Of a stretch of DNA of 64,000 nucleotides, positions 21,681 to 64,000 are shown one piece after another. The position numbers and the translations under genes were made by a program. The notes under the pieces are model-generated. The model had not been told where the DNA came from. It searched no databases and saw only the letters and a list, made by a program, of their open reading frames with translations. How positions within the stretch are numbered: the stretch's first letter is position 1; the number at the start of each line of letters is the position of its first letter. Location: the NCBI RefSeq assembly GCF_011397635.1, contig NC_064755.1, forward strand, positions 19,947,282 through 20,011,281, in the 5' to 3' direction. Source of the stretch: Epinephelus fuscoguttatus. Its lineage: Eukaryota; Chordata; Actinopteri; Perciformes; Serranidae.

Positions 21681-24600
21681 ATGAGTGAGAGTGAAAAAGA
21701 AAAGGTAAGGCAACAGCAGTTAGCTACGTAGCATCTTTAGCTTAGCAGATTTCATTAGAAAAGCATTAACTCTTAGCATTTCTGTCATTCTGAGCCCCTG
21801 TCACCTACCTTTCTCTTTAACCCAGGACCCTGCAGCATTGAAGGAGGAGGGGAACACGCTTTTCAAGGCAGGAGACATACAGGGAGCTATCTGCTGTTAC
21901 ACCAAAGCATTAAAGCTGAGTGACAACCAAGAAGAGAGTGCTGTGCTTTATCGCAACCGCTCTGCATGCTACCTGAAACAGGAGGAGTACAGCAAAGCAG
22001 AGGCTGATGCCTCTAAAGGTGGGATATAGCACAGTCTAGATTATTGTAGGGTTTATACATCACTGAGCCCAAAGACACGTTTTAATCTTAGTTTAAATTA
22101 AGGGGCATTTAATATAAATACACACTGAAGCTTACTTTTACCTGGATTGCAATCTGTCCATATATTTACTGGTTTAAATCTATAGAGTGTAACTTACACC
22201 TTACCAGGATCCTGAATGACATGCGATTAGGGATGCTGTAAGTGTTTCATTTAAAATGCTCAGCAGCAGCTATTTTCCATTGACAGAGACACTCATGATG
22301 ATCTATAGACCCTTGGGTTAATAATTTAACTGAGAAACCCTTTCAACACACAACACACACCCACCAACTGTCTTATCTTAAAGGAAAGAAACTATTTACA
22401 GCTGAGGTAAAAACAAAAACTATTTAGTGTATTGAAACATGAACTGTCACTCTGACTGGATTAAAGGAATACTTCACCCACAAAATAACCACTTATATAT
22501 CAATTATTAATGCTTTGTTACATTGAATTTGTGAAGAAAATTTTTTTCTTGCATGCACCCGGTAAATGAAGGATCCAAAAATGGCAAACATTACTTAATT
22601 GTCGTCAAGGGGAACCAGGTTTAACAACAGCAAAACTAGCCAAAATCAAAACATCTAATACAACATATAAACCCAGTTTCATGTATGCAGTCGCATGCTC
22701 AGTGCTTCCAAAGCAAATGCCTTGCCTTGTCTTCAGCCCTTTCTGAAAGGGACGAAAAGTGAAGGCACAGACAAGTTTCACTTTTAGTCCCAGTCAGAAA
22801 GGGCTGAAGATAAGGCAATGCAATGTGTTTTGGAAGAACTGAGCACGCAACTGGATAAATGACACTTGGATGATGCTGCGTGAGTTGTGTTAGAGTTTGT
22901 GAACAGATGTTTTGATAAAGTTTTGGTGTTGTTAAAAGTTTAATTAACTCATCAACAATGTATGCATGGCATGCAAGAAAAATGTCTTGGTTTCAAGGTA
23001 ACACAGCGCGACTAACTATAATATAAATGGTCGTTCTGTGGGTGAAAACTTCCTTAAAGAGTTATGGATGTGTGTGCACAGTTATATTAAACGCCATGTC
23101 TGTCACTCTTCAGCTCTCGATACAGACCCAGGTGATGTTAAAGCCAGGTTCCGGAGAGCTCAGGCTTACCAGAAACTCGGTCGGCTTGATCAGGCATTTC
23201 TGGATACTCAGAGGTGTGCACAGCTGGAACCCAAAAACAAAGCCTTCCAGGATCTGCTTAGACAACTGGGAGCACAGATCCAACACAAGGTGATGTGTTT
23301 TTGTTTTATTTTTTTTTTAATAAAGTAAATGAAAGGTCACGGAGATTTGTCTTGTATTTTAAACAGTGCCCTGAAAAAACTCTTGCTAATTAACATCTTC
23401 TCTCTTAACCACGTAGTCGGCGCAATTAAACTCCACAGATGCTCGTGTGCAGCAGATGTTTTCCCTTCTCTTAGATGCATCTGCAAAAGACTCAGATCGA
23501 CAAAAAGTAAGGGTCACTCAAAAGGCAGGAACATATCAAACTGCTGGAATCTGTTCTTTTATTATGTGTTTGACTTGTGTTCATTGTATCTTGATCTATC
23601 TGCAAAATTGTAATACACCAAAATTATATGATCCATAATTAATTTCAGGCTGCTCAGAATCTAGTGGTGTTATCTCGAGAGGACGCAGGAGCTGAGCAGA
23701 TCTTCCGTAACGATGGAGTGAAGCTGATTCAGAAACTTCTTCAGTCAAAGCAGGAGGATATTGTCCTCTCTGCCCTGAGGACCCTGGTAGGGCTGTGCAC
23801 AGGACACCAGTCCAGAGTAAGTGTGACATTCATTACACCATCTTTAAAATCCCTTTTCTCACTGATATGCAAACTTGCATTCACTTTTTTGGGAAAACCT
23901 AGGTAAAACAGTGAGTGCATCCATAGTGATGGCATCCGTATTTGTATTTTAATTTCTATGCATTTCAGTTTCCATTTATTGTTAAGTCTGCTGTAGTACA
24001 CTTCATCAACAGCCATGTCTGTCAGAGGCGTCATTCACCCTGCTCGTAAAACTTGCAAATGGCTTTGTTGCTTTTTATTGCTAACATCCACTGTCCTGTT
24101 CCCAGACTATGGCTATCGTGAATGAGTTGGGGATGGAGCAGCTGTGTGCCGTAATGGGATCAGGAGCCTCCGCTGTGTCTCTGGCTGCCTGCCACCTGCT
24201 GCAAGTGATGTTTGAGGCTCTGACGGAGGGCATGAAAAAAGAGATCAGAGGGAAAGATGAAGCCATACTTCCTGGTGAGTCTGGACTCTTGATCATGTTT
24301 GTGTTTGGACTTGGCCACACATGAAAGTTTAGCAATAAAAAATGCTTTTTTGTGTGTGTATCAGCTCTCTGTCCTTTGCTTTGAATGACAATTGACTTTC
24401 TGAATCTATCACAGAACCTTCCAAGGAGCTACGCTCAATGTTACGCCACCTCTTGGAAATGATGCAAGCATCTAATGTGTCGGGGCCGGGCAGAGACAGT
24501 GCCATCAACCTCCTGGTCAAACAAGTTCCCCGCAAGTCCTTCAAAAACCCAGATAACTCCCTCACGTTATGGGTGATAGACCAGGGTATGAAACACACCT

Positions 24601-27600
24601 GCACATAATGAAACAGACATAGACCTGCTGCCAAACACACCCAGTTCAGTTTTTAGTACAGTTGCACTACTATAGAAAGGAGAAGGAAGTGTTCATTCTA
24701 GGCCTCAGCTATTTCTAGCCCATTTCAGACATTCTGGCACCAGTTTTATTTGTTGTTTACTCCAGCCAGATTAATGAATGATTAATGCTCTCCTGTAGGC
24801 CTGAAGAAAATCCTTGAGGTAGCCGGGACAGTCCCTGAGCTTTTAGAGGGACCACCTCTCACAGACAACTCCCACATGAGCTGCTCTGTCCTGCTTAGCA
24901 AACTCTACGACGACCTAAAGAGCGACAAAGAGAGGGACAACTTCGTCAAGCTGTGTGAAGAATATGTACAGTGAGTTTCTGTTACATGAGCATCTTCACA
25001 CTGCAATAACTTAAGTACACACAAAAAAAAATACTTATCACAGGCCATAAGATGAAGAATGGTGTTCTTTTACAAACTTTTTTATCTGACGTTTTTCTGA
25101 TTAGGCAACATTTTAACCGACAAGGCCTAGATAGCAAGCTACGAGCCATCCAGACAGTATCAGTGCTCCTCCAAGGACCGAGCGACGTGGGTAACAGAAC
25201 TCTGGAGATGTCAGGGATGATGGATGCTGTGATCTCTCTGTGTGCCTCCGAAGATGTAATTCACCAGCAGGTAGCGGTTGAGACTCTCATCCATGCTGCA
25301 GGCAAGGCCAAGAGAGCCTCCTTCATCACAGCCAACGGCGTCGCTCTCCTGAAGGATCTCTACAAGAAGAGCGAGAATGACAGGATACGTGTGAGAGCCC
25401 TGGTGGTGAGTGCTGCAGCGAAGCACGTATATTTATCTCAGACAGGTGGAGGAGTGAACATCTATAAATAAAGATAAATGAACTATGGTTTCTGATGATA
25501 ATTATACAGGGTCTGTGCAAGCTTGGATCAGCAGGAGGGACAGACTTCAGCATGAAGCAGTTTGCCGAAGGATCCACGCTAAAGCTTGCCAAGCAGTGCA
25601 GGAAGTATGTTTGCCCGTATTAAATCTTTGGCATGAGGTAGATTAAGAGAAATGTGTCATGCCTGATCCACATTGTTGCATAACCAGATTGGTTCCTTGG
25701 ATTCAAAATAAGAAGCAAGCCGTTTCTCTTTCTCTTTTAGGTGGCTGTGTAATGAGTCTCTGCCGGCAACCTCCCGCCGGTGGTCTGTGGAGGGCCTCGC
25801 CTACCTCACTTTTGATGCTGATGTGAAGGAGGACTTAGTGGAAGACAAGAATGCTCTCCTCGCCATGTTTGAGCTGGCAAAGGTTTGACTGATGTTTGTA
25901 ATTAGAGGTTTTAATACTTGTGACAAGGGGACACTACAGAGCAATCATGAAGCCAGATTCCTCCCAGAAGAGCATCTCAGTGGTTTTGATGTTTGCTTTT
26001 GTGTAGTATTTGAAACCACGACACAAACACTTTTATGGTTTTGACAGTGTTGTTTTACTTTGTGTTTCCTGCAGTCTGAGGATAAAACAGTGCTCTTTGC
26101 TGTGGGCTCCACCTTAGTAAATTGCACCAACAGCTATGATGTGGAGAAGCCAGACCCTCAGATGGTAGAGCTGGCCAAGTATGCAAAGCAGCATGTGCCC
26201 GAGGAGCATCCCAAGGTACTATTTTAATTTTTGTGTATTCATGCTGAGCAATATTTGCTGCATACTAGGCTTGGATGGCATCCATTTTTTCATACCCTCA
26301 TGCCTTCCTAAAACATTTCACCGGGGTAGACACTTTGACTCCCTGTGTAAAACTAAAAAAAAAAAAAAGTTAAAGCATAGTTTTCTACATGCCACAAACT
26401 TATGAAAGGAAATATTCTTACACCTATTTTTCTTGCTAAACAGAAAATACAGCTGTACACTTCCTGAATTCAAGTTTCTTTCTTTTACCGAACTAAGACT
26501 CATTTAATTCACAGTCAGATCTGAAAATATGCAGCCTTTACAGGCTGTTTCTCCCCACTGTCTCTTTCTGCTGTTGCTGTTTTTATTAGTCCGGTAATGT
26601 TATCGGCACCACTCATAGTTGCAGCCATTCTCAGCTGAGACTGACCTCTGGTGGCGCATGTTGTGCACTACATCATCTCTGTACAGCATCTCCTTGTCAG
26701 TTTAATAAAAAGAGCAGTCCCTGTATTTGTTTCGGTGTTAAAAATCATACCTTCAGGATTTTTAAATACCCTGATAATACCTTGATACCGCCCAAGTCTA
26801 CTGCACACCACATTACTTCAATGCTGAACAGAGACTTTACTACTTTTACATGCATTTTTTTTCTTTAGCGATTGTTTGACATGAACTTGTCTGTCTTGTC
26901 ATGTGTCAGGATGCACAGTCCTACGTGGAGAAGCGTCTTGTGAAGCTGCTGGAGGCTGGTGTGGTGTCTGCGTTGGTGTGTATGGTCAAACAGGAGAGTC
27001 CTGCCCTCACCGAGGCTTGCAGAGAATGTATTGCCAGGTAGGACAACAGCAGTGACTCTTTTTCACTCAGCGTTCTCTCTGTAGATTCTGTGTTAATTGC
27101 ATTCCTCATGGCAGGGTCTTCTTGGCTTTGGTGGAACGACAGGAAGACAGAGGCACGGTGGTGGCACAGGGTGGAGGAAAGGTAGAGCACCCTGATAACT
27201 ATACTTATTTTAGCCTGTACACCATTTAGCCTAAGCACTTTGCTTTAATGGCTTAAATGATTCATGATGACTGTTTTCCTCCGCAGGCTCTGATCCCACT
27301 GGCATCTGACAACACAGACATAGGTAAAATCAAAGCAGCACAAGCCCTCGCAAAAATCGCCATCACATCAAACCCAGAGATTGCCTTCCCAGGAGAAAGG
27401 GTGAGATTTGCATGCTGGTAAAAGCCGCTTCGGTTTAAAAAGAAAAGTGCTTTTACTATTTAACCTTGTCTCACTTTTTGTTGTCAGATCTATGAGATGG
27501 TGCGCCCCCTTGTCAGTCTTCTGAGTCTTGAATGCACCCTGCTGCAGAACTTCGAGGCACTCATGGCTCTTACCAACCTGGCCGGCATCAGTGATAGACT

Positions 27601-36889: not shown

Positions 36890-37760
36890 TTAAGGGAATG
36901 ACCCTGGATGGCAAAAGTGCCACCACCCCATCATTTAACTTGCCTACTATGCTTCAGTATACCAAAAAACATTCTAGCAAAAGTAAAGATACTGCATTTA
37001 GAAAATGTATCTAAAAGTAAATCTTAGCTATAATTGGCAGTTAGTTGTAAAAAACAAAGGAAACCAAACCAAACCAAAAAACAAACAAAAAAAACACCAA
37101 AAAGTCTCAGAAGTAACCCATCATAATGTTGATTTTAAAACTTTATTTTAACAGGGTTATTTTGTTTAATTTTTGCAGAAGATCCAGTTAGTGTGTTATG
37201 TCTCTAAATAGAAATGAATTGTGCCTCTTAGCCTGTACTACATACAAAATGAAAATACATAAGGGAAGTTCCAGCCTTCTACCTTAAATTTACAGCAGGC
37301 CTACAACAGTAATTCTTTCTATATATGTTGTCTCATTTGTTTTCTTTGCAATGTCTTGATGCCATCCGGAGTTAATAATATATAACTTGCAAAATTAAAA
37401 CAAATGTGTTTCTATTTTGCTAGATATTTTTTAATAGTATGTCATTTCCCTTAACAAATACAAAGTCAAACTCTAACAACTATTACAAACATCTTCATTT
37501 TATAATAGATCATGTTTTTGTTGTTATAACCATAACCAAACAAAATCAGGACTTTGATGCATGTTAATAAAATCTACTGTTAAAAAGGCTTACTAGTATA
37601 CAAACATATAAAAAAAGATATGTGATCATATATCTACAAAGCCACAGCTTCTGGTAATGCATTAATTCACAGAGTATTTGCTAACTGATTTTTCTGAACA
37701 ACACTGGATGAAGAAGAGGATCTTGACAGGATGATCAGGAGAAGTTTACTTCAGTCCTGG
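36890..37760. other. 3' flank of the titin-like gene
   Basis: No gene. Likely holds the 3' UTR of the minus-strand gene that ends at 37761. An AATAAA on the minus strand lies at about 37142-37147. The stretch 37060-37090 is a low-complexity (CCAAA)n run. Confidence 0.3.
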
Positions 37761-40700
37761 CTAAGCTCCTTGATTTGTCTCCCAGTCTGTTGTATCTGAA
37801 AAATATCAAATAATAATAATTTTTAAAAAACTCTTATTGCAAGAAATAGAATCATACAAAACTGAAAGAATTGTACCTATCATTTTTGTTCCCTCCTTGG
37901 TCTCAGCTGGAACACCGGTCCCGTACTCATTCACACCAGTGATTCTAAAGAAGTAAATTCCTCCCTCCTCCAGGTCAGACACCTTGTAGGACAGTCGGCG
38001 GCATTTGTCTGTGAGTCTCGTCCACCCCTTCCTGCTGAGGTCCCGTATATCTACAAGGTAGCTCTTGACAGGGCCTCCTCCCTCATTCTCAGGGATGTCC
38101 CAGGTAACGGTGGCAGAGCTCTTGGTCACATCTTTCACTCTGATCTGTGCTGGCGGACCAGGTGAATCCAAAACCCTCACACTCAGTGTCAAAGAGGCAG
38201 ATCCAGCAACGTTTTGAAATTTGACAATGTATTTGCCAGAGTCATCACGAGTTGCCCCTTCCACTGTGATAGAGGTGACAGAGCTGCTGGTGTTGATCAG
38301 TCCTCTGATCCTCAGATCTACATCTGCTTTTTCCCATGTCACATTAGGAACAGGTTTGCCTGTGAAAGGCACAGTCAAAGTGAAGGAGCTGCCATCTTTA
38401 ACAAGCAGGGTCTTCCTCATATCTGGGCTAATATCAAACCTGGGCTCCTCCTCTCTATCCACAGCCACTTCAGGATCTGTCTCAGGACTTGGCTCGCTGA
38501 TGCCAATCTTGTTTATGGATCTGACAGTAAAAACATATGCCGTCCCTGATGTGAGGCCAGTTACTGTAAACTCTGTTCTGTCTGTGTTATGAACACCAAC
38601 AGTCCACTCTTCTTCTGCTGGTGTTTTGTATTCAACCTTGTATCCTGTAACTGCTGCTCCACCATCAAACAGCGGCTTGTTCCATGACAGTGTGATGGCA
38701 GTCCTGGATGAATCGATGACGGTTGGTTTTGCAGGAGGGGAAGGGAGAAACTTTGGATCCTCAGCCAGAGTGAGTGGGCAGGGGAGACTGGGTTCACTTA
38801 GCCCAGCAGCGTTCTCAGCAAAGACTCTGAATTCATACTCACACCCCACATGCAGCCCGCTAGCTTTGAATCGTAGGTCATAGACAGGCTTCTTGTTAAT
38901 ACAAACCCATCGGACACCCAGCTTCTCCCTTCTCTCAACGATGTAACCACTGATTCGGCTGCCACCATCAGAGGCAGGTCTCTTCCAGCAGATAGTCATG
39001 GCCTCGCTGGTTGCACTTGTGACCTCAACATCAGTCGGGGGGGATGGGATAGTAAAGGGATCGACGGCCTTGATGGGCTCACTTTCCAAAGTCTCACCTT
39101 CCCCATATTTGTTTACTGCCTTCACCCTAAACAGGTATTCGTTTCCTTTGAGTAGCTTTGTAATTTTGCAGGTAGTTGCCATCATGTCACCGTACATAAG
39201 GGTCCAGGCTACACGGCTGGTTTCACACTTTTCAACAATGTAGTGCATGATCTCGGCACCGCCAGTCTCATGAGGGGGTCCCCATGACAGGGTGCATTTC
39301 TCTGCTGAGAGTCCAGACACTTCCAGAGGTCCAGCAGGTGGGCCTGGCCTGTCCAGGACCTTGCAGGTGATAGTCCTGGATGTCACACCCCCTGTACTCT
39401 GTAGGGTCAGAGTATACTGTCCAGAGTCTTTCCTAACACTTTCTCTGATAAGAAGAGAGGTATGCGTCTTTGTTGCAGTTACCTCAACCCTTCCCTTGCT
39501 TCCGATATTTCTACCATTCTTCAACCAAAACACTGTGGGGTTAGGGCGGCCAGAGATGTCAGCATCTATTCTTAGGAGGTCTCCTGCTTTGACAACCACC
39601 GCCTGTCTAAATTTGTCCTCCAAGATAATTTTGGGTGGCTCCACATCATGCTGCACTGTAACAGGTCCGGTGGTTTCAGAGGGCGCACTGAAGTTCTCGG
39701 CTGCATTCTTTGCAGTCACACGAAAATCATACTGTTCTCCCTCTGTGAGGCCAGTCACTTCCAAGAAGGTGTCCAATAAGTTGGTGAAGTTGCACTTAAG
39801 CCAGCAACTCTCTGGCAGCTCCTTACGCTCAACAATGTACCCAGTTATTTTAGCCCCGCCATCATATTCTGGTTTGTCCCAGGACAGGGAAACTGAGCTG
39901 TTAGTTATATTGGTGACTGTGAGGTTGTGTGGGGGATCGCACTGGTCTCTTGCTGCCACAGGCTCAGATGCCTTACTGCATGGTCCAACACCGGCTATAT
40001 TCTCAGCACACACCCGAAACTCATATATCAGACCTTCTTCAACACTTGTTACCTTAAACTGGTTCTCAGTCACTGGGCTTCTGTTTAACTTTGTCCACAA
40101 AATACTGCTCTGATCTTTGCATTCAATATGATAACCAATGACAGGGCTGCCACCATCACTGTCTGGCTTGCTCCATGCAACCACCACAACGGACTTTGAG
40201 GCACTGACAACATGGAGATTAGTTGGTGGACCAGGGGGCTTAAAGGGATACTGGGCAACGACATGCTCAGACTCAACAAACTGGCTTTTGCCGTAGCGAT
40301 TTTCTGCAGCAACACGAAACTGATATTCAGTGCCCTGTGTCAGACGGGAAATCTTGATTGATGTCCTGGCAACTGTAGCTGACACAGTCTGCCATATTGT
40401 GCTGCCTGTATCTCTCTTCTCAACAACGTAATTACTGATTTGACAGCCGCCAGTGTAGTGAGGGGGCTGCCATGACAATGACATAAAGTCAGCACTCACT
40501 TCATCCACTCTGAGCTCACTTGGTGGTCCAGGTCTTTCAAATACATTAACAAAGATTTCAGCGGATGTAGTTCCAGATGAGTTGGCCAGGGTCACCTCAT
40601 ACATGCCAACATCTGATCTGGTTGCATCTTTGATAATGATCTGAGACGATGTGTCAGATGTGTGCACATTTACTCTGCTTGTCTCTTTCAGCAAGTTACC

Positions 40701-43700
40701 ATCTTTCTTCCAGGCTGCTGTTGGCGGTGGCACACCCTTGAATGGAACGTCGATCTTTAAATCATTTCCTGCCTTTACAGTGAATGTGTTGGACAGCAAA
40801 TTAATAACAGGCTCAGCGTTGGTATCCTTTACTGTAACAGGTGTCAAAAGGGACTTTGGTTCACTTTTTCCCTTTTCGTTCACAGCAGTAACTCTAAAGA
40901 AATACTCCTGTCCTTTTTCCAGCCCATTAATAGTCACTTCCGGTGCTTTACTCTGTGAACACAATGCCCACGTATCATCTCCCTTGGCCTGCATTTCTAC
41001 CATATAACAAGTGATTTTGCTCCCTCCATCATGGCCAGGCTTCTCCCAAAAGAGTCTTGCACTATTGGAAGTAACATCACTGACTGTGATTTTGCCAGGA
41101 GGCAGAGGAGCCTCCGACACTTTAACAGGCTCAGAGATCTCTGCTGGCAGTCCAGTGCCAAACTCATTCACGGCAAGGACACGGAAATAATAGAAGCTCC
41201 CTTCCTGGAGATTGTCAATCTTGTATGAGTTTCTCACACAGTTGCTACAGACACTTGTGAATGCTTTTCTGGCCTCCTCTCGCTTTTCTACAATGTAGTG
41301 GGAAATCTTTGCTCCCCCGTCGATGAGAGGTGCCTCCCAAGTGATGGACACAGAGTCCCTCTTCACATCCTTTACCTCTAAGTTGGTTGGTGCACTGGGA
41401 GAGTCCAACACTCTGACATTAATGAATGCTGATTTAGTGCCTCTGCAGTTCTCAGCAGTCAACACATACTTTCCTGTGTGACTTCTATTGACATTCTCGA
41501 TCACTAACTCTGTATGGGAGCTTGTTACTTCAATTTGAGCACGCTCACTGACAGCGCCGCCTTCCTTTGACCATTTAACCTCAGGCTTTGGCCTTCCTCT
41601 GATGGTGACAAGGAGACGTAACGTGGAGCAGGCCCGAACACTGACAATCTTCCTCAAGGTAGAGTCCAACTCGATCTCAGGTGCCTCCAGTTTTTCAGCA
41701 GCTACCACAGTCTCAGGTAGATCCACATGCTCTCCAACTCCAGCAACGTTCATCGCACGGATACGAAAATTGTACTTTGCATTTTCTCTCAGTCTCTTCA
41801 CAGTGTAGCTTGTGTCCTCTACACCTGTGCTTGGTGTACATGCAGTCCACTCGTCTTCTGCTTCTTCTTTCATCTCAACTACAAATCCACTGATGCCTGC
41901 TCCTCCATCATAGATGGGCCTTGACCAGGTCAGAGACACAGTACTGCCAGAATAGTCTGTCACTTTGGGGTTGGTGGGGGGACCAGGTGGGTAAGTAGCT
42001 TCACATATTTTTATAAATTCACTTGGCTCACTGGGTGCACCCACACCACCAGCATTCTCTGCCATTACTCTAAACTGATAGTAATGTCCCTCAGTGAGCC
42101 CTGTGCATCGGAATCGCAAGTCATTTAGTCTTCTCTTGTTGCATTTGGTCCACCTGACACCCTCTTTGTCACATTTCTCCAGGATGTAGCCTTCAATCTC
42201 TGAGCCTCCATCACTCTCGGGTCTTTCCCATGATAGCACGACAGAGTCACCAGTCACAGCGCTGGCTGTAGGGGTTGAAGGTGCACTAGGTGTTTTAAAA
42301 GGGTTCTGTGCAATGAATGGGTCTGATTCCAGGAATTCACCAACACCAAATTTATTCACAGCAGCTATTCTGAATATATACTCTTTCCCCTGCACCAGTT
42401 TTGTCACTTTGTAGCTGACAGCTTCAACTTGAGACTCAACCCCTGTCCATGTAACACGGCTGGTCTCCCTTTTTTCAACGATGTAGTGAGTAACACTGGC
42501 ACCACCATCATTTAAAGGAGGGTTCCAGTGAAGATTACACTTCTCTGCACTGACAGCTTTCACCTTCAAAGGTCCGTCTGGAGGACCAGGTCGATCCAGG
42601 ACCTTCACATTAGCTGAGACAGATGTAGTTCCACCAACGTTACTGAGGTTCAAGACAAAGCGCCCCCCATCCACTCGAGCACAGTCCCTGACGGTAAGAG
42701 TCGTATGAGTGAGGGTGTTTTTGATCTCCATTCTTGGCGTAGCTTTGTCAATTTCTTTTCCATCCTTCAGCCATATTATTGCAGGAAGGGGCTTCCCAGA
42801 GTAATCAGCATCAATAACGAATGTCTCACCAGCCTGAACAATGGTAGCACTCTTGAATTTAGGATCCATGAACGCTTTGGGTCCTTCAATGACATCCTGA
42901 GCGATGATGATTACGCTTTCTGAGGGTGTGCTCCAGACGCCAGCACCGTTCTTAGCAGTTACTCTAAACTCGTAACCTTGACCTCCTGTCAGACCTGTGA
43001 CTGTGAACTCAGTCTCAATAACATTGGTGAAGTTTGCCTTCATCCATCTGCCATCTGGGAGCTCCTTCTTTTCAACAACGTAGCCTGTAATTGTGCTTCC
43101 TCCGTCATACTTAGGTTTTGCCCACTGAAGTGTGATGTTGTCTCTAGTGATGACAACAGCTTCAGGTTTACCAGGTGGATCACAGCGGTCTCGTGCCACA
43201 TAGCTTTCAGATATCTTGCTAGGTGGGCTGAGTCCTGCAATATTCTCAGCAATGACTCTGAATTCATACTCAATGCCTTCCTCCAGTCCACTTGCTTTGA
43301 AGCGAGCATCAGGTAGGACAAGTTTGTTCAGCTTGGTCCATAAAATGCTGTTCTTCTCTTTGCGCTCAAGGTGATAGCCAGTGATGGGGCTGCCTCCATC
43401 TTTAGCTGGAGGCTCCCATTCAACCACCATGCTGTACTTTGTCACTGAGGACACGAAGGGGGTGCCAGGAGCTGTTGGCACACTGAAAGGATATTGTGCA
43501 ACCACAATAGGAGAGGTGATTGCAGTACTCTTTCCATACCTATTTTCTGCAAACACTCTGAATTGATATTCATTTCCTGTCTTCAGTTTGGTGACTTTGA
43601 TTGTGGTTCTTACTGTCGTTGCCGACACAGTCTGCCAGTCTGTACTTAAAACGTCCCGTTTCTCTACTACATAGTTGTCTAGCTGACAGCCTCCTGTGTA

Positions 43701-45432
43701 TTCTGGCGCCCCCCAGGAGATGGTAACATAGTCAGAACTGATCTCATCAATCTTCACAGGCCCTGTGGGTGGGTCGGGCTTTTCGAGAACAACCACAGTG
43801 ATTTCTCCTGTATATTTTCCAGCGCTGTTGCTTGCCGTGATGGAGTATTGACCAGAGTGCTCCCTGGCAGCATGTCTGATATGAAGAACTGTTAATGGTG
43901 ATGTATTTGACACTTCTAACCTTGATGTCTCTTTGACTGGCTGAGCATCTTTTTTCCATTCAATCTTTGGTGCTGGGTGTCCAGTCACTGGGATCTCTAC
44001 TTTCAGATCTTCCCCATTCTTGACAGTAAATGTGCCAAAAGTTATCTGGAGCTCTGGCTTAATAGCCTTTTCCTTATCTGTGACAGGGCCAGGCTGGACC
44101 CCAGGGTGGTGTTCTGCGCTCTCTGCAGCAGGAGCAGCCTGACCTGGTGTGAGGAAAAACAGCATCAAATAAGGAAAACATTAGCTGGTATCACTGTGCA
44201 GACTGGTTATACAAAATTAGTCTATGCGACTTTTAAATGCATTCGAGTAAACGCATTAAACTGTTGAGTGAATGTTAAAACTTCCAACTTTATCTTACAT
44301 AGATAACACCGTCAAGAAGTGAAGGTTAGATAATTGCCAGAAGTATGTTTTTTGCATTTATCTGTGATTGTTAATTTAATCATTATGAAATTGAATTCTT
44401 AAGAAAAGTATAACTTTTTATTATCTAGACCACACAATGATGGGATGAATGCATGACATACCGTGGACATTGGCTGTGAGGGGTGGCTGGGTATTGTTTG
44501 CTGTGAGCTCTGCGTGAGGTGTCACATTTATATTTAGAGTGTGAGATGTGTCTTCTGCTTTCTTCCCCGCCTACAAAAGAAAATAGTCTGTCAGAGAGTA
44601 TAAAGATAAACACCAGCTTAAACAATCAGCGTGACGTGTTTCTTTTTTCCCTTTTTTTAGTAAGACTGTTATGTTGTTTGGTGAAAAAAACATTTTAAAA
44701 TTGCTATACATCTAAAATCTTTAGACATATTTTCAAAGCAGCATAAACGGTCCATGTTTCCTTTATCAGTTTCTGTATAATAGGCTATGTAGTGCTTGAG
44801 CTATTCTTTATTTTGTTATGTTTATCTTCTAAACCCTCATCTCATGAAACTACACATAATCTCTCACAAATTATTTATTTGTTTATTTCTTAAGTTTTAT
44901 TTTATGTTCTTTTTTTCTTTACTATTTACATTTATATTGTCTGTTTTTCTCACCTTGTATACGTAGCCTATATGTCTTAGTATAAATGAGCTCTTTCTCT
45001 TTTCTATATGTCGAGAAGATCAACAACAGTTCAAGTGACAAAAACACACATTTTGCTATACATACTCAATCATAATAGAATTTTGACAAAACTAACTTTA
45101 GTAATCAAGCTAGCACGTAGGTTATCATAGTGAGTGTGATATGTTGGTAACAGAAACTGTTGATGGAGTTAAAAATAACTAGAGGCATGGCGGACCAGGC
45201 TGCCATCTGCTCAACTGAACAGATACACCTCTATTATTATCTAACCCTTAAAGCTCTCATAATGTTTAAACCTTTTCACTTTAGAAAGAACCGCAATAAA
45301 GACAAATCATTACTCAAAAAGTAGCTGCCAGATAGTTCAATAACGATCAAGATATGATATAAGATATAAGATTGTTACAAGTATTATAGTTTCAGACACA
45401 ACTGTACTTACTTTGTTGTTGCTGGCCTCCAT
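37761..45432 (-). CDS. titin A-band (C-zone)-like protein of 6 Ig and 15 fibronectin-III domains, about 2143 aa
   Basis: Exons read on the minus strand: 45412-45432 (MEASNNK), 44462-44570, 37877-44143 (6267 nt, uninterrupted), 37761-37795 (ends ..DWETNQGA, stop). All GT-AG; the introns bounding the large exon are phase 1, as is usual between Ig/Fn3 modules. After a low-complexity Pro/Ala/Thr-rich N-terminus (about residues 1-72) come 21 modules in the order I-F-F-F-I-F-F-F-I-F-F, then I-F-F-F-I-F-F-F-I-F. This is a rotation of the 11-domain titin C-zone super-repeat. Fn3 modules carry PPGPP linkers, W..P..DGG and Y.FRV.A.N; Ig modules carry K..W.K.G and a D.G.Y motif. No kinase, PEVK, Z-disc or M-line regions. 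Titin C-zone modules bind myosin tails and MyBP-C (family knowledge), so thick-filament association is plausible but inferred. No gene of this kind is known to me between CIB1 and GDPGP1. The large exon is certain; exons 1, 2 and the last are predicted. Confidence 0.85.
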
Positions 45433-47290: not shown

Positions 47291-47816
47291 TTAACAACCC
47301 TGGTTGTAGAGTTGTAGTACACTAAATTAAATGTCATGCCAGTTTAATAACTGATAAAATGAACTGGCAACAATTTAGATAATTGATTAATTTATAGTTT
47401 AGTTTATTTATTTGCACATACATGTGTGTAGAAAAGATAGTATGATGTTAAAAGTTTAAACATTGTGCAGGAGAGGTTAGAAGCCAAGAAATGTCTTACG
47501 AAGATGCCTACCTTATTAAATATCAGCAATCATACATAAAGAAAAAGATGAAAACAAACATTGCATAATTGATCAAAGTTACAAGACTAAGGAGTAATAT
47601 AAAACTGATAGAAATGTACAAATTACAGAAAAAGTTTGTTTATAAGTTAAAATGCATCACATATGTATTAATGAAGTGTTATGAGTCTTTGCAAATTAGT
47701 CCCTTTAGATGTTTTTAAATAATGATAATTTAGATTTTGATTGCATAGTTGATTGATTGATGTTGATTAGTAGTTGATTTAGTAGGCAGACTAATCAATA
47801 ATTGTTCTTTGCAGCC

Positions 47817-47870
47817 ATGTTCACAGGCTACTCATGTGACCCAGCGCTCTGTCAGCAAAATGACATCTAA
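47817..47870 (+). promoter_or_regulatory. upstream ORF overlapping the gdpgp1 start codon
   Basis: Three bases into the coding exon (after the CAG acceptor) an ATG in GCCATG context opens a 17-codon frame, MFTGYSCDPALCQQNDI, that stops at TAA 47868-47870, past the main ATG at 47860. Translation from it would be expected to lower initiation at gdpgp1. This is inferred and depends on the acceptor at 47814 being used. Confidence 0.5.
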
Positions 47871-49032
47871 AAGATCTGCTATAGTGAACCCCATTGTCAA
47901 ACCTCATGCCTCTGTGCCTCACTGTTCATCAGCAGATCCAACCATGCCACTCCAGTTTGTGTATAGCAACCGGGACTTTGTCACAGATGTGCATCGGAGC
48001 AGCGAAAGCAGACTTGGGGTTGAATCACCGCCAACCAAGTTTGACACGACCATCCAGTCCGGCTGGACAGACAGGATGAACAGGGGGCTCTTCCGCTACC
48101 ATCTGGGTGATTTACAAACCCGTATCCTGCCGGGTCCGCATGGCTATGTTGCCCAGCTGAATATTCAAAGAGGAATAGAGAGAAGAAAGCCTCAGGAGAT
48201 ACTCAGCATTCAGCAGGAGTTCAGTGCCAAGCAGTTTAATTTTAACAAAATCAATCCAGAGGAAATCATATTTGAGATGATTAAGGACGCTGAGGGAGGA
48301 CATGAAAAAGGACAGGTGCATCAACCCTGCAGGATGGTTGTGCTGGTCAATGTCAGCCCTTTGGAGTTTGGACATTGTCTCTTTGTTCCAGATCCTTCAC
48401 GCTGTTTACCACAGGTCGTGACGAGGTTCGCCCTCCAGGGTGGTATTGAATCTGTGCTCCTGAGTTCCGATCCTGGCTTCCGTGTGGGGTTCAACAGTCT
48501 CGGAGCGTTTGCGTCTGTCAATCATTTGCACCTACACGGGTACTACCTGGATCATGAGCTCAAGTTAGAATCGATGCCAGTCAAACCACTGGTCCCGGAA
48601 AAGGGGTTTTATCGCTTGTTGGACTTTCCTGCAGGCTTTTTGTTTTACACAGAATCAGAGGGGGTGGAGAAAGTTGCAGGAGCAATCTGTCAAGTCACAG
48701 ACTTTCTTGTGGACCGTAATATTGCTCACAACCTGTTCTTGACTAGAGGATGTCCGCCCTGTGATCGCATGCAGAACGAAAAGGATCACAGTTCGAGAAA
48801 GGGTGTTCGTATCGCTGTATGGCCCAGAGCATCGTGCTTCGGTGCCAAGGAGGAGTCTGCCTTCAATGTTGCACTCTGTGAGCTGGCTGGACATTTACCA
48901 TTTAAGAACAAGAAGGACTACGAGCTCACTTCTGAGAGAGATGTAATAGGTATCATCCAGCAGTATCTGTTGCCTGACGCAGAGTTTCACACGCTGGAAC
49001 AGCAGCTTACTCGTCATTTGTTGGATTTATAG
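47860..49032 (+). CDS. gdpgp1: GDP-D-glucose phosphorylase 1 (390 aa, single coding exon)
   Basis: Cytosolic HIT-superfamily enzyme that cleaves GDP-D-glucose by phosphorolysis to GDP and glucose 1-phosphate, removing a mis-made sugar nucleotide (family knowledge). The human protein is 385 aa and also has one coding exon. Seen: GLFRYHLGDLQTRILPG, AQLNIQRGIERRKPQ, QFNFNKINPEEIIFEM, VNVSPLEFGHCLFVPDP, GFRVGFNSLGAFASVNHLHL followed by HGYY, where HLHLH is the HIT-type catalytic histidine motif, IAHNLFLTRG and AFNVALCELAGHLP. The start ATG at 47860 (MTSKRSAI) is the first in-frame ATG after the splice acceptor. The frame is open further upstream but without an ATG. Possible poly-A signals are ATTAAA at about 49041 and AATAAA at 49267-49272. 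Confidence 0.96.
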   Translation: MTSKRSAIVNPIVKPHASVPHCSSADPTMPLQFVYSNRDFVTDVHRSSESRLGVESPPTKFDTTIQSGWTDRMNRGLFRYHLGDLQTRILPGPHGYVAQLNIQRGIERRKPQEILSIQQEFSAKQFNFNKINPEEIIFEMIKDAEGGHEKGQVHQPCRMVVLVNVSPLEFGHCLFVPDPSRCLPQVVTRFALQGGIESVLLSSDPGFRVGFNSLGAFASVNHLHLHGYYLDHELKLESMPVKPLVPEKGFYRLLDFPAGFLFYTESEGVEKVAGAICQVTDFLVDRNIAHNLFLTRGCPPCDRMQNEKDHSSRKGVRIAVWPRASCFGAKEESAFNVALCELAGHLPFKNKKDYELTSERDVIGIIQQYLLPDAEFHTLEQQLTRHLLDL

Positions 49033-62865: not shown

Positions 62866-63745
62866 AACCGTCCATCCATCTACTTCCATCCGCTTATCCG
62901 GGGCCAGGTCGCAGGGGCAGCAGGCCAAGTCAAGCACCCCAGACACCCTCTCCCCAGCAACTCTTTCCAGCTCCTCCTGGGGGACCCCAAAGTGTTCCCA
63001 GGCCAGATGAAATATGTGATCCCTCCAGCATGTTCTGGGTCTGCCCCGGGGCCTCCTACCAGTGGGACTTGCCCGTACCACCTCAAACAGGAGGTGCCCA
63101 GGAGGCATCCTTACCAGATGCCCAAACCACTCAACTGACCCCTCTTGATGCAAAGGAGCAGCGGCTCTACCCCGAACTCCTTACCCTATCTCTAAGGCTG
63201 AGCCCAGCCACCCCATGGAGGAAACTCATTTCGGCCGCTTATATCACAATCTCATTCTTTCAGTCATTACCCAGAGCTCACGACCATAGATGAGGGTTGG
63301 GACGTATTGACCAGTGAATCAAAAGCTTCGCCTTCTGGCTCAGCTCCGTCTTCACCACGACAGTCCAGCATAGTGCCCACATCACTGTAGAAGCCTTACC
63401 AAACTGCTGATCCATCTCACGCTCCATTCTACCCTCATTCGTAAACAAGACTCCAAGATACTTGAGCTTCCTCGCTTGAGGCAGTAACTCTCTCCTAACC
63501 CAGAGGGGGCAATTCACCGGTTTCCGGCGGAGAACCATGGCCTCAGACTTGGAGGTGCTGACTCTCATGCCGACCGCTTCACACTCGCCTACAAAACACC
63601 CCAGTGCATGCTGGAGGTCACGGTGTGATGACGCCAACAGAACCACATCATATGCGAAAAGCAGAGATGCAATTCTAAGGTCCCCAAACTGGACTCCTTC
63701 CTCCTCCCGGCTGCACCTTAAGATCCTGTCCATGAACATCAAAAA
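62866..63745 (-). mobile_element. 5'-truncated LINE (non-LTR retrotransposon), reverse-transcriptase C-terminal part
   Basis: Minus strand. Conceptual translation shows FGDLRIASLLFAYDVVLLAS (the catalytic FADD box reads FAYD), GMRVSTSKSEAMVLRRK, LKYLGVLFTNEGRMEREMD, and in another frame VEWFGHLVRMPPGHLLFEVV, RPRGRPRTCWRDH and LAWEHFGVPQEELERVAGER. These are the thumb and C-terminal region of an abundant teleost LINE family. The 3' end has the usual 'ccggataagcggatggaagt' plus (GATG)n termination. At least one frame change and the altered active site make it inactive. The clade (L2/Rex1-like) is not certain. Confidence 0.75.
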
Positions 63746-63749
63746 CATA

Positions 63750-64000
63750 TTGTATATTGATATATACAATACAACTAAAACATATAAACACAGGAAAAAA
63801 GAAAAAAGCACAGTGCATCATAGTGCATTTAGAGAAAAAGTGCAGGTTTGAGTTCAGCACGACCGAGTCCAGTTCTGACACATTACAAGAGATGCGCAAA
63901 AATGCTTGAATGAACACACTTTAAATGTATCAATTCAAACTGCATTAGATTGTAACAAAGTTTACATAACACACCACTGATCACATTTTACTGTTTTGTG
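63750..64000. other. right edge, rhcg intron, nothing recognised
   Basis: AT-rich sequence with no splice-supported exon. Confidence 0.3.

Follow-up and report, generated by a model that had tools for sequence, protein, structure and literature searches.

Short, free-standing relatives of a giant filament ruler exist in the nebulin family, nebulette among them. Cronos titin, reportedly described by Zou et al. in 2015, is said to be an internal-promoter product of the titin gene itself that runs to the M-band. Teleost titins have been published as two neighbouring copies on one chromosome, and the same paper describes titin as a single vertebrate gene with no retained ohnologue (PMC12198301). 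In the thick filaments of cardiac muscle, strands of titin run along the myosin tails with a super-repeat spacing of 43 nm, and the sixth domain of a C repeat touches a myosin free head; MyBP-C, a protein characterized by thick-filament binding, is located at the super-repeat junctions and was not seen to contact titin directly in the relaxed state (PMC10665186). A surface motif at position 7 of the titin super-repeat has been reported (PMC10665226), and deletion of two C-zone repeats in the mouse leads to shorter thick filaments (PMC5648799).

The locus considered here lies in a window of 64,000 nucleotides (the whole stretch of DNA analysed) of Epinephelus fuscoguttatus and represents a predicted free-standing titin C-zone gene. 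With titin C6-C8 (fish ttn2; PDB chains 8g4l_bm and 8q6t_I, the latter of which we take to be mouse titin) it has in common all 21 modules with their order and register, the exon end, and a similar constraint on shared columns. In contrast to titin, the gene has its own locus, predicted start, tails and stop, lacks the rest of titin, and is about 30% diverged from ttn2. Like Cronos titin, its product would be a titin without the front part, but the fish gene is separate from titin and comprises part of the C-zone only. MyBP-C is also an A-band Ig/Fn3 protein; however, the best MyBP-C chain scores 272.6 bits as against 1593.1 bits for titin, and domain order and tree position are those of titin, so that MyBP-C was rejected as the closest relative. 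Nebulette offers an analogy as a short free-standing relative of a giant ruler, and differs in filament, modules and family.

Gene model and genomic surroundings

The gene occupies positions 45432-37761 on the minus strand. Four exons are predicted, all three introns have GT-AG borders, and the CDS of 6432 nt would encode a protein of 2143 aa plus the stop (234.3 kDa, pI 5.96).

45412..45432, minus strand: predicted exon 1; start codon, residues 1-7; ATG with A at -3 and G at +4; donor GTAAGT
44462..44570, minus strand: predicted exon 2 (109 nt); residues 8-43 and the first base of codon 44; non-titin N-terminal tail; consensus acceptor and donor
37877..44143, minus strand: exon 3 (6267 nt); 21 Ig/Fn3 modules corresponding to titin C6(4-11), C7(1-11), C8(1-2)
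37761..37795, minus strand: predicted exon 4 (35 nt); short non-titin C-terminal tail and in-frame stop; acceptor present
37125..37760, minus strand: putative 3' untranslated region; poly(A)-signal words at 37435, 37170 and 37147, by word search only

The splice positions proposed in the first-pass annotation proved correct for all four exons, and so did the phase-1 borders on both sides of the 6267-nt exon; the border between exons 1 and 2 is in phase 0. If the last intron were left unspliced, the exon 3 frame would end in a stop 23 residues further on. The N-terminal tail, searched as DNA over exons 1-2 and as a 70-residue protein query, has no relative elsewhere in the genome, the other matches of the DNA query being three short ones to intron 1. 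In the 1 kb upstream, muscle motifs show no excess, as judged by the expectation from 200 shuffles (given in brackets): MEF2 was seen 0 times (0.43), the E-box 2 times (1.79), CArG 0 times (0.15) and MCAT 0 times (0.33), with TATA likewise at 0 (0.48).

Around the gene, a minus-strand EF-hand exon resembles CIB1 structures along 43 residues (E 6e-13 for the best match), and further exons belong to the RCC1, TPR, UNC45-central, GH38 and ammonium-transporter families. These families presumably correspond to CIB1, RCCD1, UNC45A, MAN2A2 and an Rh protein of human 15q26.1. The 15q26-type synteny suggested at first pass is in part supported, by the CIB1-like EF-hand, UNC45, RCC1, GH38 and ammonium-transporter exons, but not by gdpgp1: the frame so named (47809-49032) has no Pfam match, and its name is taken over from that annotation.

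Module content and collinearity with ttn2

Exon 3 encodes modules in the order I-FFF-I-FFF-I-FF-I-FFF-I-FFF-I-F (I, Ig; F, Fn3), and Pfam identifies 15 fn3 and 6 I-set stretches; both agree with the 6 Ig and 15 Fn3 modules counted earlier. Also in line with the earlier reading, no kinase is found in exon 3 among the best 25 of 26 Pfam families. Apart from overhangs of up to 17 bases beyond the end of exon 3, a tblastn search with the giant-exon frames of both titins (E up to 0.05) revealed no further match in the window. With an exon 3 that consists of Ig and Fn3 modules only, and with exons 1, 2 and 4 of 21, 109 and 35 nt, the gene does not encode a full titin (connectin). It does show the 11-domain order Ig-FF-Ig-FFF-Ig-FFF of the titin C-zone, and its super-repeat content amounts to one whole repeat, eight domains of the preceding repeat and two of the following one. 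The predicted protein contains two position-6 domains and two super-repeat junctions one repeat apart, and no titin ends. Repeat numbers (C1-C11) were counted by eye along the ttn2 domain string, and the limits of the following domains were converted by hand.

42933..43184, minus strand: Fn3, super-repeat position 7, C6 copy; residues 364-447; keeps the position-7 motif of PMC10665226
41406..41648, minus strand: Ig, super-repeat position 1, C7 copy; residues 876-956
39696..39941, minus strand: Fn3, super-repeat position 7, C7 copy; residues 1445-1526; motif altered in its first half
38169..38411, minus strand: Ig, super-repeat position 1, C8 copy; residues 1955-2035

The hexapeptide AVNKYG is present once in the predicted protein.

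The genome searched comprises 1.047 Gb in 26 contigs, with the gene on contig C4 and the titins on contig C13. Many of 150 I-set matches (150 of 2305 candidates were scored) cluster on contig C13 at 36.37-37.04 Mb, where the domain strings identify two adjoining titin genes in tandem, ttn1 and ttn2. Their giant open frames, measured from stop to stop, have 5777 and 5740 codons, respectively, each with 58 modules in the same order. The ttn2 string includes eleven C repeats, and the giant exon contains C3-C7 together with the final domain of C2 and domains 1 and 2 of C8. Residues 51-2134 of the predicted protein can be aligned over their whole length to residues 3655-5738 of the ttn2 frame, with 69.5% identity over 2084 residues; identity is 53.0% to ttn1 at the same place and at most 50.9% in other super-repeat registers. 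Because the alignment is collinear with the 3' end of the ttn2 giant exon, exon 3 is assigned to C6(4-11)-C7-C8(1-2), and collinearity with a titin exon over such a length places the likeness far beyond chance. Furthermore, the end of exon 3 and its splice donor coincide with those of the ttn2 giant exon. Identity to ttn2 by domain ranges from 50.6 to 80.7% and is spread over all 21 domains, and the longest DNA run identical between the two is 24 nt; recent gene conversion is therefore unlikely.

The 45 matches of a genome search with exon 3 are the gene itself and 44 places in ttn1 and ttn2. No second copy of the gene was found among the scored candidates (23 of 452 first-look candidates; weaker relatives may exist), and a scan of viral contigs yielded seven pattern matches and no relative of the gene. 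The best PDB matches are the titin chains of 8q6t and 8g4l (8q6t_I, 8g4l_bm).

Constraint and possible role of the product

Selection was estimated with a three-branch codon model of the gene, ttn2 and ttn1, based on 2067 codons complete in all three (gapped columns were dropped). Branch omega is 0.131 for the gene, 0.094 for ttn2 and 0.154 for ttn1, at a branch dS of 1.00, 0.69 and 1.57, respectively. On the gene branch, omega=1 is worse by 27.2 lnL, and equality with ttn2 costs 0.6 lnL. The gene has no stop, as compared with 20 to 81 on average (lowest single run 8) under neutral simulation with 0.1 to 1.0 changes per site and 50 runs each; gaps are limited to one single-residue run each way over 2070 residues. 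From these estimates we conclude that the gene is kept by purifying selection of about titin-like strength. Neither neutral evolution nor disabling changes were found, although the case is weaker at the most variable columns, and the first-pass view that this is not a decayed pseudogene holds.

At the 1414 columns that are variable among super-repeats, omega is 0.202 for the gene versus 0.081 for ttn2 (equality costs 2.4 lnL), and at the 398 most variable columns omega=1 is just 1.5 lnL worse for the gene. With ttn1 as guide, the gene has 38 changes of its own and ttn2 26 at 653 invariant columns; at 1410 variable columns the numbers are 190 and 95. The columns invariant at each position in other repeats show departures at 63/488 in the gene, 55/488 in ttn2 and 54/488 in ttn1. 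For position 1 these are 5/31 in each of the three, and for position 7 they are 9/56, 9/56 and 6/56 in the same order. A second alignment gives 30/85, 28/85 and 26/85 for position-specific columns (the gene departs alone at six, ttn2 alone at four), 10/262, 14/262 and 9/262 for fold-wide columns, and 10/75, 7/75 and 10/75 for those in between. The C6 copy has the whole position-7 motif of PMC10665226; the C7 copy differs from it in the first half. Judged by these alignments, residues conserved at each super-repeat position are retained: the gene holds the super-repeat invariants about as well as titin does, and its variable columns are less constrained than those of ttn2. Since the Ig/Fn3 fold also depends on many of the conserved columns, and many departures were inherited in common with ttn2, this retention is no proof of myosin binding.

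The gene is an independent, open one: its big exon was copied from the 3' part of the ttn2 giant A-band exon on contig C13 to contig C4 and has been selectively kept since, and it is predicted to have gained first exons, a short tail and a stop of its own. The reading we prefer, and to which we give an even chance, is that the product of this gene would be an unanchored accessory C-zone strand on thick filaments. It would be a rod of 234 kDa without anchorage, spanning about two 43-nm periods, and may run along the thick-filament myosin tails in register with the C-zone. Such a strand could add to, or locally compete with, the strands of titin and, in some fish muscle, affect the myosin heads and where MyBP-C is placed. 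Lacking titin ends, the rod could not bridge the half-sarcomere and determine filament length in the way titin does. The 'mini-ruler' or 'decoy' roles proposed at first pass stay hypothetical. Against an accessory strand speak the absence of direct MyBP-C-titin contact in the relaxed state (PMC10665186), the lack of an upstream excess of MEF2, CArG, MCAT or E-box motifs, the weaker constraint at variable columns, and the larger number of changes of its own than in ttn2.

The missing titin ends and the new N- and C-terminal tails would also suit a functional gene that acts off the sarcomere, for instance as a myosin-associated rod of the cytoskeleton or centrosome, or one whose product is a soluble competitor, such as a decoy limiting titin or MyBP-C assembly. 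We regard this as rather unlikely, even though the lower constraint than in ttn2 at variable columns and the upstream motif counts are compatible with it, and a C-zone Fn3 epitope, the AVNKYG found once in the protein, is reported to stain non-muscle centrioles including those of zebrafish (PMC3541999). The super-repeat-specific columns are kept as in titin, which argues against it. We know of no such free-standing gene in human or mouse. Human and mouse cells give the same centriole staining (PMC3541999), which also speaks against an off-sarcomere function.

More doubtful is a copy of titin descent whose role in muscle does not depend on docking to the thick filament, e.g. as a Z-disc or membrane linker; the N-terminal tail without relative in the genome could redirect the rod, but the position-specific titin columns are kept. 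Still less probable is a relic left by a titin duplication, with a frame that is still open but has no function or hardly any use. As noted, the most variable columns give no clear rejection of omega=1; however, the overall omega of 0.13 at a branch dS of about 1.0, the stop-free frame and the single gap run each way contradict this explanation.

If a gene limited to C6(4)-C8(2) is indeed selectively kept, it would show that part of the C-zone is selectable on its own. As an accessory strand, its product would provide a natural test of what C-zone super-repeats do alone: both the effect of a 43-nm super-repeat on myosin and MyBP-C without tethered titin and that of extra strands on the thick-filament state would become testable.

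Tree position, origin and age

In the tree of domains 4-11 (12 rows), the C6 and C7 parts of the gene pair with C6 and C7 of ttn2, both with support of 100/100, and ttn1 comes next. The gene's C7 pairs with ttn2 C7 in the tree of domains 1-3 (11 rows; 97/93), and the tree of domains 1-2 (14 rows) supports the pairing of gene and ttn2 with 98/94 for C7 and 100/97 for C8. The mouse chain 8q6t_I is most similar to ttn2 C6-C7 (67.1% identity), followed by the gene (63.5%) and ttn1 (60.2%). In a 10-row tree it is placed outside the gene-ttn2 pair (100/100), the order of mouse and ttn1 being unresolved there. Collinear homology and a tree position inside titin characterize the gene as titin-derived, i.e. 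paralogous to titin, and the C-zone-type identity assigned at first pass is supported. Because ttn1 and the mouse chain both fall outside the gene-ttn2 pair, we conclude from the trees that the gene is a fish-lineage copy of part of ttn2, younger than the fish-tetrapod split; by the same topology, the copying is placed in the fish line after the separation of ttn1 and ttn2.

An ancient vertebrate gene that predates the fish-tetrapod split and was lost in human would fit the 15q26.1-type neighbours, but the pairing with ttn2 to the exclusion of ttn1 and the mouse titin C6-C7 chain (100/100) makes this very improbable. An assembly artefact or a misplaced exon of the titin locus, conceivable for a titin-like sequence from a single assembly, is hardly credible: the nearest titin is 69.9% identical and shares no identical DNA stretch of more than 24 nt, each titin has an open giant exon of its own on contig C13, and the window contains no N. 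The first two figures rule out a misassembled titin fragment, and the free-standing gene annotated earlier stands, at about 70% identity to its parent ttn2.

With regard to the mode of copying, the sequence past the homologous exon end reads GTAC as in the ttn2 intron and not as in the next exon of ttn2; being a few bases only, this mildly favours a DNA-level copy over a retrocopy of titin mRNA.

Node depths, derived by hand from the codon model, are 0.85 (mean) for gene and ttn2 and about 1.21 for ttn1 and ttn2, a ratio of 0.70. The teleost genome duplication is dated to 267-286 million years (PMC12862963). If the titin pair is about as old as this duplication, the copy would be roughly 190 million years old, a value that saturation, the assumed date and unequal rates reduce to a guide only. 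From this rough age, intact orthologues are predicted in many teleosts. We tentatively suggest, at somewhat less than an even chance, that the gene is a third teleost titin-family gene of about 190 million years whose product, as an unanchored strand decorating thick filaments, would act independently of full titin to tune the myosin heads or the spacing of MyBP-C.

A third titin gene is named in no title or abstract start among the literature matches listed, and the 'titin-like' proteins of fish proteomics are not assignable to the present gene. An unnamed 'titin-like' locus may already be contained in the sequence databases. Antibodies and probes for fish A-band titin, as well as read mapping, may pick up two kinds of gene product.

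Tandem titin genes and a shared epitope

Contig C13 of the searched genome (G000) carries two tandem titin genes, ttn1 and ttn2 (the latter the source of the titin-like gene's large exon), each with one uninterrupted giant frame:

G000:C13:36513349-36530679, strand not given, giant open titin frame
G000:C13:36994335-37011554, strand not given, giant open titin frame

Both frames are open over more than 17 kb and possess an identical set of 58 modules. For the part comprising super-repeats C6-C8, the ttn1 branch is the longer of the two: dN is 0.24 there, a figure that takes in the stem preceding the copy's origin, versus 0.07 on the ttn2 branch.

The motif AVNKYG is present in the C7 position-9 Fn3 domain of the titin-like protein (residues ~1643-1726). 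One study describes it as the epitope of an A-band antibody which also stains centrioles of non-muscle cells (PMC3541999); a C-zone-only gene with this motif could mislead such staining in fish.

Neighboring genes

Window 47809-49032, + strand, 407-codon open frame
Window 21724-25468, + strand, UNC45-type gene (TPR and UNC45-central exons)

The 407-codon frame, called gdpgp1 in the first-pass annotation, matched no family in a Pfam search; it lies head to head with the titin-like gene, the two starts being ~2.4 kb apart. UNC45 proteins are myosin chaperones, and the UNC45-type gene sits within 13 kb of the titin-like one. Presumably it is the UNC45A of the 15q26.1 block, and this proximity may therefore be due to chance.

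Repeat-like sequences

Window 44716-45050, section of the titin-like gene's intron 1
Window 63281-63817, - strand, open frame

The intron section, with short matches at 68-74% on contigs C4 (which carries the gene), C6 and C24, is perhaps a dispersed repeat. Judged by eye, the open frame resembles part of a reverse transcriptase of the LINE type.
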